Below are positions 17,105 to 21,634 of a stretch of DNA of 44,115 bases, piece by piece. Within the stretch, counting starts at the first letter, position 1; every line of letters starts with the position of its first letter. The notes below the pieces were generated by a model. It saw only the letters and a program-made list of their open reading frames with translations. It was not told where the DNA came from and ran no database searches. Where the stretch lies: the NCBI GenBank assembly GCA_944372055.1, contig CALVYF010000007.1:1-44115 (forward strand), given 5' to 3'. Source of the stretch: an uncultured Bacilli bacterium. Lineage in GTDB: Bacteria; Bacillota_I; Bacilli_A; RF39; UBA660. The position numbers and the translations under genes were made by a program.

Positions 17105-17278
17105 ATGTCAAAAAATATTGTGCAGTTTTTTACAGTGAATTTAGTTTTCTTTTTGGGAATATTTTTCTTACTTATTTATATATTTGTTGCGAAAAATATT
17201 TTAGATGTATTCTATTTAATTTTTTTAGTAATTTATTATTTTAGTGTTAAGTATTATGGGTGGCAAAAATATCATTAA
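17105..17278 (+). CDS. Small two-segment membrane protein (57 residues)
   Basis: This short frame starts at ATG 17105 behind AAAGGA and ends at TAA 17276. The product is very hydrophobic: segment 1 at about residues 9-29 (FFTVNLVFFLGIFFLLIYIF), a short KN linker, segment 2 at about 33-47, and a basic/aromatic tail YYGWQKYH. An extended -10-like TGTTATAGT lies at 17063-17071, and a terminator starts inside its end, so it is bounded as its own transcription unit. I do not recognise a family. Confidence 0.6.
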   Translation: MSKNIVQFFTVNLVFFLGIFFLLIYIFVAKNILDVFYLIFLVIYYFSVKYYGWQKYH

Positions 17279-17294
17279 TGTGATATTTTTATTT
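17265..17294 (+). terminator. Terminator overlapping the end of the 57-residue gene
   Basis: AAAAATATCA (17265-17274) pairs with TGATATTTTT (17281-17290). The stop codon is in the loop. It immediately precedes the tatD ribosome binding site. Confidence 0.7.
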
Positions 17295-17306
17295 TGGAGG
17301 TATTTT

Positions 17307-18059
17307 ATGTTTATTGATACGCATTGCCATTTATCTATAGAAGATTATGAAGATATAGAAACAATTTTGGAAGATAATAGAAAAGAAGGAGTAAGTCCTA
17401 TTATTATTTCAGGATGTACAAAAGAAACTATTATAGAATCATTACAATATGGGAACTTGTATTCGGATGCTTTTGTGACTATAGGTTATCATCCTTCGGA
17501 AGCAGATATTACTACAGATGAGGATTTGTTTTTATTAGAAGAAAAACTAAAATTAAATAAAGTCGTTGGTATTGGTGAAATTGGCTTGGATTATCATTAT
17601 GGTAAAGAAAACAAAGATAAACAAATAGAGCTATTTGAAAAACAGTTAGCGATTGCGGAAAAATATCATTTACCTGTTGTTATTCATAGTCGTGATGCTA
17701 CTTTTGATACCATAGATTGTTTAAAAAAATATTCTGTAAGCGGAGTTATTCATTGTTTTAGCGGAAGTCTAGAAACTGCAAAAGAATATATAAAAATGGG
17801 ATTTTTTTTAGGAATTGGCGGAGTTATTACTTTTAAGAATAGTAATTTAGCAGATACTGTTACTAAAATTCCTTTAGATAGTATTGTTTTAGAAACGGAT
17901 AGTCCTTATTTAACACCGGTTCCATATCGTGGAGAGAAAAATAGTTCTAAGTATATACCATTCATTGCGGAAAAAATAGCTAATTGTAAGAATGTTTCTC
18001 TTAAACAAGTGGCGGAAATTACTACATCTAATGCTAAGTATATTTTTCATTTAGATTAG
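17307..18059 (+). CDS. tatD: TatD family metal-dependent hydrolase
   Basis: This is a TIM-barrel metal-dependent hydrolase of the TatD/YabD family, associated with DNase or DNA-repair activity. The 250-residue protein has the metal ligands in order: DTHCHL, the Glu of IGEIGLDYH, VIHSRDA, HCFSG and ETDSPYL. ATG 17307 after GGAGG is the start; the open frame upstream runs through the small membrane gene. In Bacillus yabD follows metS directly, so synteny holds. Confidence 0.94.
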   Translation: MFIDTHCHLSIEDYEDIETILEDNRKEGVSPIIISGCTKETIIESLQYGNLYSDAFVTIGYHPSEADITTDEDLFLLEEKLKLNKVVGIGEIGLDYHYGKENKDKQIELFEKQLAIAEKYHLPVVIHSRDATFDTIDCLKKYSVSGVIHCFSGSLETAKEYIKMGFFLGIGGVITFKNSNLADTVTKIPLDSIVLETDSPYLTPVPYRGEKNSSKYIPFIAEKIANCKNVSLKQVAEITTSNAKYIFHLD

Positions 18060-18060
18060 G

Positions 18061-18089
18061 TTGAAAAAAAAGATAAAATAGTGTATTCT
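18061..18089 (+). promoter_or_regulatory. Sigma-A promoter of the surface-protein cassette
   Basis: TTGAAA (18061-18066), a 17-base spacer and TATTCT (18084-18089). Confidence 0.5.
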
Positions 18090-18115: not shown

Positions 18116-18718
18116 ATGAAAGTATTTAATAAATTACAGCAGCATCAGACATTATTTATTTTGATTATTTTGATTTTGATAGCTATTTTTTCATTTGTAC
18201 TTTGCCTATTTCTTTATTTTTATGGTAATACTGAGAATACAAAAAATGCTACTTTGATTTTTTCTTATTCAGAAAATTCTAACGGTTTAGAAGTTGATAA
18301 TTCTATGCCTATTACTGATGCTATAGGGAAACAACTTACATTTTCTCCTGATCAAACAAAATATGGGTATAGTGAATTTAGTATTTCTTCTACTATGGAA
18401 GGTATAGAATTTGTTAATTATGAAATTTATGCTATACCTGTTGGTGTGGCTTTAGAGCTTCCTACAGATTATGTTAAAGTTTACTTGACGGATGGTAAAG
18501 ATGATTCCCCTATGGAGGATTATCGTTCGTCTATTCCTACTTATAGTGATTTAAAAGTAGCCAAGGCTGATCCTGCTGGGAAGAAACTTTATTCTGGTGT
18601 ATTGAAGAAAGAAGAAACCAAAAAATTTAGATTACGTATTTGGTTGAGGGATACTTATCCAATTACAATGGAAAAACGTAGTTTTAAAATTTTACTTTAT
18701 GCTAAGGTAATAGATTAG
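18116..18718 (+). CDS. TasA/camelysin-like exported protein, paralog 1
   Basis: This is the first of three related proteins encoded beside a SipW-type signal peptidase. Its 200 residues are one N-terminal hydrophobic segment (about 13-36) and an extracytoplasmic domain. Shared landmarks with the other two are MPITDAIGKQL, YSEFSISS, VNYEIYAI and, near the end, LRIWLRD. No clear Ala-X-Ala cleavage site follows the hydrophobic segment, so it may stay membrane-anchored. The TasA/camelysin relation is inferred from size, architecture and the neighbouring peptidase, not a clear sequence match. It is in an operon with paralog 2 (8-base gap). Confidence 0.65.
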   Translation: MKVFNKLQQHQTLFILIILILIAIFSFVLCLFLYFYGNTENTKNATLIFSYSENSNGLEVDNSMPITDAIGKQLTFSPDQTKYGYSEFSISSTMEGIEFVNYEIYAIPVGVALELPTDYVKVYLTDGKDDSPMEDYRSSIPTYSDLKVAKADPAGKKLYSGVLKKEETKKFRLRIWLRDTYPITMEKRSFKILLYAKVID

Positions 18719-18726
18719 GAGGATAT

Positions 18727-19320
18727 ATGGAAAATAATTATAGGACAAGAAATGTAGTATTTATTGTTTTGGGGATTAGTCTAATTTTAATTTTAGTTGT
18801 TGTGTTTGCTTTTATGATGTTTTTTAGAGAACAAAAACAGAACGTGAATGAGGTAGTAAAAAATAGTGTTGTTACTATGAATTATAAAACTTCTACTAAT
18901 GAATTTTCTCTTACCAATTTGACTCCTATGTCTAATGAAAGTGGCAAGGATTTAAGAGACGAGGGGAGTTATTTTGATTTTTCGGTTTCTTCTAAGATGG
19001 ACGAAGATGCTTCTGTTCAATATGAAATTGCTTTGATAAAAGATGATAGTTCTACTATTTCTGATAATGATATCGTTGTTTATTTAGAAAAACAGAGTAG
19101 TGGTACTTATGCCAAAGTAGAGGATCCTACTGTTTTTACTCCCATTAAGAAAAAAACAACTTTAGGTAGTCCAGCTAAATCTATGGTGTTGGATAAGGTA
19201 AATCTTTCTTCAGAAAAAGAAGTTAACTATAGATTAAGATTATGGGTAAGAGAGGGTGCTGTTGTAGATTCCAGTGCTACCTATTCTGTTAAAATCAAAG
19301 TGTTTGGGCAAGCGAAATAG
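18727..19320 (+). CDS. TasA/camelysin-like exported protein, paralog 2
   Basis: The second paralog has 197 residues. A basic N-terminus (NNYRTRN) precedes a hydrophobic segment at about 10-31, then an external domain with LTPMSNESGKDL, YFDFSVSS, VQYEIALI and LRLWVREG at positions equivalent to those in paralogs 1 and 3. It also lacks an obvious signal peptidase site. AGGAGG just after the paralog 1 stop sets ATG 18727. A hairpin beginning in its stop codon ends the two-gene operon. Confidence 0.65.
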   Translation: MENNYRTRNVVFIVLGISLILILVVVFAFMMFFREQKQNVNEVVKNSVVTMNYKTSTNEFSLTNLTPMSNESGKDLRDEGSYFDFSVSSKMDEDASVQYEIALIKDDSSTISDNDIVVYLEKQSSGTYAKVEDPTVFTPIKKKTTLGSPAKSMVLDKVNLSSEKEVNYRLRLWVREGAVVDSSATYSVKIKVFGQAK

Positions 19321-19343
19321 ACTTCTTTGAAGTCTTTTATTTT
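19319..19343 (+). terminator. Terminator overlapping the paralog 2 stop
   Basis: AGACTTC (19319-19325) pairs with GAAGTCT (19329-19335), followed by an imperfect T-run. Confidence 0.6.
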
Positions 19344-19369
19344 GATTTTTAAATTTTATATGATATGAT
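19342..19369 (+). promoter_or_regulatory. Sigma-A promoter of paralog 3
   Basis: TTGATT (19342-19347), a 16-base spacer and TATGAT (19364-19369) with a TG extension. Confidence 0.55.
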
Positions 19370-19399
19370 TAAAGTACTATAGTAGACGGAGGTTTTCAT

Positions 19400-20026
19400 A
19401 TGATTCAGTCAGAGTCTAAACAAATTTTATTATCTATTATTGGCATTGCTGTATTAATTATTGCTTTTGTAGGTGTTTCTTATGCAGCTGTTACTAATGT
19501 TTTTAGAGATTCTTATACTAATAGTATTTCTACAGGTACTATTTCTTTAGTTTTAGAAAATAACCAAGGGTCTTTATCTATGGAAAATATGATGCCGATT
19601 TCTGATGATACTGGTAAGTTGTTGGAGGGTAATGGCAATGTTTATGATTTTACAGTACAAAGTAATTTATCTGCACATACTACTCTTAATTACGAAATTT
19701 TTGTAGAAAAGATTTCTTCTGATCTAGAGATGTTAGATAATTCTTCTGTCAGATTTTATTTACAACGTTTTAGTGATAACGGATATGTAGATACTACTAT
19801 TACTCAAATTCCCCAACCATTTATACCATTAGACGAGGTGAGTTTCCTTGGAAGTAAAAAAGGTAGTATGGTATTATATTCGGGTACTTTGGCGAATACA
19901 TCAGAAACTAGTAAAGAGCTTAGAGAGAATTTTCGTTTACGTATGTGGGTATCTAAAGATACTATTATTGATTCCGTTAGTCGCAATTTTGATATTAAAC
20001 TAAATGTGACAGCAAAAGCGATTTAG
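19400..20026 (+). CDS. TasA/camelysin-like exported protein, paralog 3
   Basis: The third paralog has 208 residues and is the one with a convincing signal peptide: a hydrophobic segment at about 9-28 ending GVSYAAVTNVF, similar to SipW-dependent signal peptides where the processed chain begins shortly after an Ala pair. The external domain repeats the cassette landmarks MMPISDDTGKLL, VYDFTVQS, LNYEIFVE and LRMWVSKD. It has its own promoter and terminator, unlike paralogs 1 and 2, so it may be made in different amount, for example as the main fibre subunit. That role is inference. Confidence 0.7.
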   Translation: MIQSESKQILLSIIGIAVLIIAFVGVSYAAVTNVFRDSYTNSISTGTISLVLENNQGSLSMENMMPISDDTGKLLEGNGNVYDFTVQSNLSAHTTLNYEIFVEKISSDLEMLDNSSVRFYLQRFSDNGYVDTTITQIPQPFIPLDEVSFLGSKKGSMVLYSGTLANTSETSKELRENFRLRMWVSKDTIIDSVSRNFDIKLNVTAKAI

Positions 20027-20051
20027 AGGATGTAAACTCCTCTTTTTTTTT
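20025..20051 (+). terminator. Terminator overlapping the paralog 3 stop
   Basis: AGAGGA (20025-20030) pairs with TCCTCT (20038-20043), followed by a long T-run. The stop codon overlaps the left arm. Confidence 0.8.
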
Positions 20052-20118
20052 ACCTTATAACTGGTTTTTTTGATTTTTGCGTGTTATTATGTTTATGATG
20101 ATAGATAGGAGGGCTATT

Positions 20119-20784
20119 ATGAAACAATACTTTGATACAAATCATGATGATGTTGTTTCTATCAAAGAAATCATACAGTTCTTCTTTCATTTTATAACTA
20201 AGGTTATTTTGTATGTTATCTTTCTTTTATTAGCTCTTGTTTTTTTATTTTTTATTTTTTATTTTATTGATTTATTATATAATCTTCGTTCTGGGGAAGA
20301 TAAACCGCCACTTTTTGATGCTTATGTTATTGTGAGTCCTAGTATGGTTCCAACGATTAATGTACAAGATGCGATTATTGTAGCCAGAACTTCTCCTGAA
20401 GATTTAAAACAGGGAGATATTATTAGTTATTTAGCAACGGATTCTTATTATGCTGGTAAAATTATTACTCATAGAATTATCGGTATTGAAAAAGGGACGG
20501 ATGGTTCTTTGCTTTATCGTACTAAAGGAGATAATAATAATGTTGCTGATGGAGTTTTAGTTAATGAAGATAACGTTTATGGAAAAGTCTTGTTTAGAAT
20601 TCCGATGCTCGGTTATATTAGGCAGTTTTTGTCTACATATTTTGGCTGGATTCTTTGTATAGCACTTCCACTTTTATATTTAATTATGGTAGAAGTAATT
20701 AAAGTACGTGCACTTATGAAACAAAAGAAGTTGAATGAGGCAAAAAAACAGTCTGTTTTGGAGAAAGACATTGAAGTGATTTAA
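20119..20784 (+). CDS. sipW: Signal peptidase I, ER/SipW type
   Basis: This membrane peptidase removes signal peptides from exported proteins. The 221-residue protein has an N-terminal membrane segment (about 27-54), the catalytic serine in VSPSMVPTI (S75), and ITHRI (H118) where bacterial P-type enzymes have lysine. Ser-His is the archaeal/ER arrangement seen in B. subtilis SipW. Box E is TKGDNN (D138). A second membrane segment lies at about 184-202 with a basic tail. In B. subtilis SipW matures TasA and TapA; here the gene follows three TasA-like genes, so those are its likely substrates. ATG 20119 follows AGGAGGG. Confidence 0.85.
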   Translation: MKQYFDTNHDDVVSIKEIIQFFFHFITKVILYVIFLLLALVFLFFIFYFIDLLYNLRSGEDKPPLFDAYVIVSPSMVPTINVQDAIIVARTSPEDLKQGDIISYLATDSYYAGKIITHRIIGIEKGTDGSLLYRTKGDNNNVADGVLVNEDNVYGKVLFRIPMLGYIRQFLSTYFGWILCIALPLLYLIMVEVIKVRALMKQKKLNEAKKQSVLEKDIEVI

Positions 20785-20804: not shown

Positions 20805-20833
20805 ATTATGTTATATTTTTGGTGGTGATAAGT

Positions 20834-21634
20834 ATGGAACATTACAATGTAGATTTTAAAAAAAGGTATGGTCAGAATTTTTTGAAACGGAAAGCTGTAG
20901 TAGAACGAATTGCAGATGTTTGTTCTTTGACAGATAAAGATTTAGTAATAGAAGTTGGTCCGGGTGGAGCAATTTTAACGCAAGAATTGGCAAAAAGGGC
21001 AGGACATGTGTTGGCTTATGAGATTGATATGGATTTACAGGGAGAACTACATAAGAAGTTAGAAAATTGTTCTAATGTTGAAGTGTTATTTCAGGACTTT
21101 TTAACTAGTTCCTTAGAACAAGATATTTTACGTTTTTCTTATCAAAATTTGTATTTCATTAGTAATGTTCCTTATTATATAACAACGCCAATCATTATGA
21201 AGATTATTGATAGTCATTTGAATTTTCAAAAGATTTGTATGATGGTTCAAAAAGAAGTAGGTAATCGATTTTCTGCTCTTCCTGGAACTAGAGATTATGG
21301 TTCTATTACTGTTTTTTTATCTTATTTTTATATCATAAAAAAAGAATTTTTAGTTTCTAGAAAAGAGTTTATTCCAGAACCTAATGTTGATAGTGTAGTA
21401 ATATCTTTTACGAGAAAAGATAATTTGTTACCTTTGAAGGATCAAGATTTATTTTTTAGATTGGTAAAAGATAGTTTTCAATTTAAAAGAAAGAACTTGC
21501 GTAATAATTTAAAAAAATATGATCTAAATTCTATTTCTTTAATTTTGGAAAAACATGGTTACGATTTGACTGCTCGTGCTGAGCAATTATCTGTTGAAAT
21601 ATTTGTAGATATTGCTAATGGCTTATCTGTTTAG
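20834..21634 (+). CDS. rsmA: 16S rRNA A1518/A1519 dimethyltransferase KsgA (RsmA)
   Basis: The enzyme dimethylates two adjacent adenosines at the 3' end of 16S rRNA during 30S maturation. The 266-residue protein has the family start RYGQNFLKRKAVVERI, the SAM motif VIEVGPGGAILTQEL and the catalytic NVPYYITTPI. The start is ATG 20834 after GGTGGTGATA; the upstream frame (from 20789) overlaps the preceding terminator. It lies upstream of yabG, as in Bacillus. Confidence 0.95.
   Translation: MEHYNVDFKKRYGQNFLKRKAVVERIADVCSLTDKDLVIEVGPGGAILTQELAKRAGHVLAYEIDMDLQGELHKKLENCSNVEVLFQDFLTSSLEQDILRFSYQNLYFISNVPYYITTPIIMKIIDSHLNFQKICMMVQKEVGNRFSALPGTRDYGSITVFLSYFYIIKKEFLVSRKEFIPEPNVDSVVISFTRKDNLLPLKDQDLFFRLVKDSFQFKRKNLRNNLKKYDLNSISLILEKHGYDLTARAEQLSVEIFVDIANGLSV

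Follow-up and report, generated by a model that had tools for sequence, protein, structure and literature searches.

A cassette of three TasA-like paralogs and a SipW-type signal peptidase at a conserved site in Candidatus Faecimonas

Three tandem genes for TasA-like proteins (P1, P2 and P3), followed by a gene for a SipW-type signal peptidase, were found between tatD and ksgA in an uncultured gut bacterium of the genus Candidatus Faecimonas, order RF39. In the reading that explains the data best, and which we regard as somewhat probable, these genes form a fibre system of the TasA kind that includes a dedicated SipW and occupies a fixed chromosomal site in GTDB CAG-611; P3 would be the secreted subunit, and P1 and P2 membrane-held partners. 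The window, that is, the whole stretch of 44,115 nucleotides that was analysed, is part of a 1.35-Mb genome. Candidatus Faecimonas was assigned to GTDB order RF39, family CAG-611, by a MAG survey (PMC8035907). No description of TasA or SipW in RF39 or Faecimonas was found in the open-access literature searched, and the locus seems to be a surface system shared widely within a large assemblage of uncultured gut bacteria. The features of the locus, in window coordinates, are the following.

17244..18059, + strand: tatD, the upstream boundary, flanking and outside the system; conserved as the left flank in 30 loci, including the window
18061..18089, + strand: putative P1-P2 promoter, TTGAAA-17-TATTCT (pattern match)
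18116..18718, + strand: P1, TasA-like, 200 aa, one N-terminal hydrophobic segment, without the cleavage motif (LCLFLYF)
18727..19320, + strand: P2, TasA-like, 197 aa, one N-terminal hydrophobic segment, without the cleavage motif (FAFMMFFRE)
19319..19335, + strand: terminator-like hairpin and T-run after P2, AGACTTC-TTT-GAAGTCT
19342..19369, + strand: putative P3 promoter, TTGATT-16-TATGAT (pattern match)
19400..20026, + strand: P3, TasA-like, 208 aa, predicted secreted subunit
19400..19486, + strand: predicted P3 signal peptide, residues 1-29, with the putative cut after S-Y-A; the motif [ST][FY]A|x[FY] was aligned family-wide
20025..20043, + strand: terminator-like hairpin and T-run after P3, AGAGGA-TGTAAAC-TCCTCT
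20081..20090, + strand: putative extended -10 of sipW, GTGTTATTAT (consensus match); most orthologs have this box upstream of sipW
20119..20784, + strand: SipW-type (ER/archaeal-type) signal peptidase, 221 aa, assigned by profile matches and SPSM and THRI
20825..21634, + strand: ksgA, the downstream boundary, flanking and outside the system (PF00398, E 2.6e-58)

According to the ORF calls in the window, the genes are arranged in the order tatD, P1, P2, P3, peptidase gene, ksgA, all on the + strand. A preliminary description made from the letters of this DNA had proposed three tandem paralogs of about 200 residues, each with one N-terminal hydrophobic segment, followed by a peptidase; this was confirmed by the ORFs of 200, 197 and 208 aa. 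The four shared landmarks that it had listed in the same order proved to be invariant columns of the P1/P2/P3 alignment: in P1 numbering, P65, G71-K72 and L74; F88 and S92; Y102-E103-I104; and L173-R174 and W176. This three-way alignment contains 23 invariant columns, with pairwise identities of 23-26%. A single-sequence search with P3 in its own genome recovered both paralogs, P2 (E 1.3e-18) and P1 (E 1e-9). At the level of sequence, the homology of the three proteins is above chance.

All four genes of the cassette were present in 16 of 16 genomes examined in the genus, the own genome counted. When a tree was computed from the mature regions of the proteins, P1, P2 and P3 formed three separate ortholog groups. 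The outgroup genus L082 was represented in all three groups, and members from genus G028 fell with P1 and with P2, some of these joins involving long branches. Because the ortholog groups are shared with L082 (and, for P1 and P2, with G028), the trio probably predates Candidatus Faecimonas. In G028 (L023:841-2728), P1, P2 and SipW lie between tatD and ksgA and P3 is missing there; therefore, P1 and P2 are not strictly dependent on P3. This genus, together with the orphan anchored relatives described below, speaks most against an obligatory trio.

Profile comparison places the cassette as a distant offshoot of the TasA/camelysin family, below the family cut-offs. P1-P3 reached no Pfam or NCBIfam cut-off. 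PF12389 had no match in the own genome, P1-P3 included; NF046066 did not match P1-P3 and matched 7 of 111 relatives, with a best E of 0.0037; and the TapA model was not among the NCBIfam matches of P1-P3 at E <= 1. An alignment of the 111 relatives was then compared by hhalign with 17 proteins found with PF12389 in other Bacilli. The probability was 98.1% over the full length and 92.1% after removal of the signal segment, and the reversed-alignment control gave 0.5%. The 17-protein comparison profile itself finds the TasA structures 5OF1 and 8AUR (E 7e-8) as well as archaeal AbpX (E 5e-5). Thus, the TasA/camelysin likeness suggested in the preliminary description is supported as remote homology.

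The AlphaFold2 model of P3 (mean pLDDT 88.9) consists of a long N-terminal helix followed by a beta-sandwich; mature P3 modelled from its single sequence, without an alignment, gave an uninformative pLDDT of 52. Foldseek with the P3 model returned many beta-sandwich proteins with low TM-scores. The TasA fibre 8AUR ranked 28th (E 3.3e-4, TM 0.28), EcpA and FimG were near it, and several unrelated beta-sandwiches ranked above it; the structural likeness to TasA is weak and no better than to these. The proposal had been tied to a fold related to that of TasA. Since P3 is modelled as a beta-sandwich, its fold is not clearly unrelated, but with 8AUR only at rank 28 and TM 0.28, the model alone does not settle the fold. 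Consequently, the strong hhalign result outweighs the weak structural one in linking the cassette to TasA.

The peptidase was correctly described as a Ser-His signal peptidase, and its SipW type was borne out by profiles. It passed the ER/archaeal-type model TIGR02228 (E 1.1e-29, 103.4 bits, cut-off 51.85) and scored below the cut-off of 190 for the Bacillus SipW equivalog NF046067 (E 1e-24, 87.2 bits). SPSM (in one case VTPSM) and THRI or THRV, which contain the catalytic Ser and His of peptidases of this type, were found in every genus ortholog examined. The mechanically called ORF begins at TTG 20077; ATG 20119, which is preceded by AGGAGG, is the better start. Elsewhere in the own genome, a signal-peptidase-like stretch was noted inside a 386-aa ORF (C13:19813-20121), and counterparts of 380-400 aa are present in many genomes of the family.

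The N-terminal strand of a TasA subunit (A28-F29) is free and, in the fibre, enters the next subunit near P62; F29 and P62 belong to the interface residues singled out as most conserved (PMC10151520). The family consensus around the cut is GxSFA|AF, and of the 83 members that meet the cleavage rule, 75 have F or Y at mature position 2. P3 retains the TasA-type signal and the mature start S-Y-A|A-hydrophobic; in the window its mature start is A-V, and in orthologs it is mostly A-F. The column equated with TasA P62 through the profile alignment is proline in 109 of 111 members, P1-P3 included. The TasA C-terminal pocket glutamine (Q232) has no counterpart: P3 ends in LNVTAKAI, compared with EAIQ in the comparison consensus. 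The cleavage motif is lost in 14 of 14 rows for P1 and in 13 of 14 rows for P2, L082 among them, the P2 ortholog of L068 retaining a borderline S-F-S site. A clear signal peptide had been ascribed to P3 alone, and the motif is indeed limited to P3 and lost in P1 and P2 of nearly all orthologs. Lacking a cleavage site, P1 and P2 probably stay uncut in the membrane. It was also considered whether P1 is a lipoprotein, as its hydrophobic segment contains a conserved Cys; the residue before this Cys varies (L, F, I, V or G) and the residues after it are hydrophobic, so a lipoprotein is unlikely.

The cassette is probably divided into three transcription units, P1-P2, P3 and sipW, of which P3 and sipW would have their own promoters. 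The gap between P1 and P2 is 8 bp in the window and in nearly all orthologs. Of 16 loci, 13 have a hairpin with a T-run after P2 and 13 have one after P3, where shuffled sequence would give 0.8 and 0.46, respectively; these conserved hairpins suggest the separation into three units, and their stems vary in sequence between species. The co-transcription of P1 and P2 that had been proposed is thus supported by the short gap and the hairpin after P2, as a pair apart from P3. In the window, 10 promoter matches were found where 15.9 were expected, so that individually they are not above chance, and the putative promoters are argued for only because boxes recur across species before P1, P3 and sipW. 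The pattern GTTGAAAA..AAAATAGTGTATTCTTA..ATAGGGG before P1 recurs in most genus orthologs, and a TATGAT-type box precedes P3 in most orthologs. In the hairpin after P3 (20025-20043 in the window, and in orthologs), the stem differs from species to species, yet the loop is conserved as TGTAAA or TGTCAA.

Homology, motif losses, conservation and the probable separate units were computed here; cleavage, polymerisation and anchoring are what we infer. In the proposed mechanism, SipW would cut P3 after S-Y-A and free a beta-sandwich protein whose N-terminal strand begins with A-hydrophobic, like TasA A28-F29. By analogy with TasA, P3 might then polymerise, each subunit donating its strand to its neighbour. 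P1 and P2, which by homology would share this fold and which keep the proline-box residue, could not be cut and would stay in the membrane. Because they keep the receiving-side proline and not the free N-terminus, it is proposed that they might anchor the fibre or initiate it. If so, the anchoring of TasA-type fibres becomes directly testable, as two of the three paralogs would be natural membrane-held versions of the subunit.

A reading that deserves weight, but that we consider rather unlikely, is that these are TasA-superfamily surface proteins that form no fibre, P3 being a soluble secreted or wall-associated protein and P1 and P2 membrane-held sensors or chaperones. It would account for the many anchored members, namely P1 and P2, the two orphan families of the genus and, outside the genus, a short paralog that follows SipW, and for the presence of P1 and P2 without P3 in G028. 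However, two features that belong to the subunit interface in TasA fibres, the free A-F start and the proline, are conserved, and up to seven tandem copies, mostly cleavable, occur in other genera, as expected of the subunits of a polymer. Both observations argue against this reading.

Two further readings appear much less probable. Coating of the spore, in place of a vegetative fibre, had been suggested as a variant in the preliminary description; yabG, spoVG, yabP and yabQ are among the neighbours, the genome encodes Spo0A, and TasA is alternatively named spore coat-associated protein N (5OF1 title). Although Spo0A is encoded, the -10 boxes conserved upstream of P3 and of sipW resemble housekeeping-sigma sites, which leaves this variant unsupported. 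Moreover, the gene order around ksgA here is the general ancestral arrangement, and we consider a spore role very improbable. Convergence is likewise improbable; under this reading the proteins, perhaps related to archaeal pilins, would share with TasA no more than a generic beta-sandwich that is secreted and has a hydrophobic N-terminus. Weak profile matches (E about 0.01) to two archaeal pilins, 8TIB and 6NAV, and the unrelated beta-sandwiches above TasA in the Foldseek ranking would fit it, but they stand against the mature-only profile comparison (92% versus 0.5% reversed). Archaeal pilins of the 8TIB/6NAV class are cut by another peptidase and at another place, and a relationship to them was rejected as weak.

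Regarded as a fibre system, the cassette resembles the tapA-sipW-tasA operon of Bacillus subtilis in having a dedicated SipW beside its substrates, and P3 shares with TasA the type of signal, the mature start (A-hydrophobic) and the residue of the proline box. Unlike that operon, the cassette contains no TapA match, its non-subunit partners being TasA-like paralogs without a cleavage site; it also differs in genomic site, in sequences below the family cut-offs and in its probable three transcription units. The sipW-calY1-bc_1280-calY2 locus of Bacillus cereus (camelysins), with CapP, likewise has more than one TasA-type paralog per SipW, and one of these may fill the role of TapA (PMC10151520). 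In contrast to the camelysins, two of the three paralogs described here retain the membrane segment. The archaeal bundling pili (AbpA/AbpX) belong to the wider TasA-like group, AbpX having been found by the comparison profile, but are archaeal. With type 1 and P pili (chaperone-usher) the cassette would share the donor-strand principle, a parallel proposed here by way of TasA, whereas no usher or periplasmic chaperone was recognised at the locus and the envelope is of the Gram-positive type. Loss of sortase as the reason for a sortase-independent system was ruled out by five sortase domain matches in the own genome.

The family was also followed in other genera. Family members occur at 30 tatD-linked loci, the window counted, and SipW is present in 26 of them. 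Among the four loci without SipW, L086 and L087 end about 4 kb or less past tatD, and L113 and L114 lack SipW in 4.9 and 12 kb, respectively. A SipW match was found in 34 of 35 genomes having a P3 match. The preliminary description had held that homologs regularly standing without the peptidase would count against it. The figures for loci and genomes favour the association; in other genera, dispersed copies that lie apart from SipW are common.

At the tatD-ksgA site of other genera, one to seven family members, mostly with the cleavage motif, lie ahead of SipW. In many of these genera, SipW is followed by a short paralog with an N-terminus that looks uncut, then by membrane proteins of 229 aa and about 150 aa and by ksgA; examples of the two membrane proteins are L093:8365-9484, L089:13329-14472 and L091:12096-13324. 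For neither of them did any Pfam match exceed the cut-off, and Candidatus Faecimonas lacks the 229-aa family. Some genomes contain 13-37 dispersed family members, many within ORFs of 400-700 aa. In sampled fusions, a TasA-like N-terminal module is joined to an LRR/DUF285 region (L109:133-1743) or, near threshold, to an Ig-like one (L090:2133-5495), and such proteins are possible candidates for fibre-docked adhesins. A broader picture, which we put forward tentatively and hold to be doubtful, is that of an RF39 fibre machine with secreted subunits, uncleaved, membrane-held TasA paralogs as its base, two undescribed membrane proteins in many genera, and dispersed proteins in which a TasA module is fused to LRR, Ig-like or other large regions and which dock on the fibre as adhesins.

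Several minor observations were made in the course of this analysis. The two orphan membrane-anchored families related to P1-P3 within the genus are of about 195 aa and about 245 aa (L118:1492-2217; L166, L167, L169 and L170), so anchored members may have other jobs. In the neighbourhood read, the relative in L118 has no adjoining SipW. In several genera, a protein of about 195 aa lies between tatD and the TasA-like genes (L089:6409-6996, L092:5318-5902, L108:3627-4214 and L102:7586-8212). The one in L089 matches the PF06725 3D domain, and these proteins may be remnants at the yabE position. A second SipW-type locus, L123, is present in the own genome (C12:13000-25769). It encodes a large surface protein, an AAA ATPase, several TasA-like secreted proteins with A.F/AWF starts, a 212-aa peptidase-like protein in which the active-site Ser is not recognisable, and a further SipW at L123:9753-10358.
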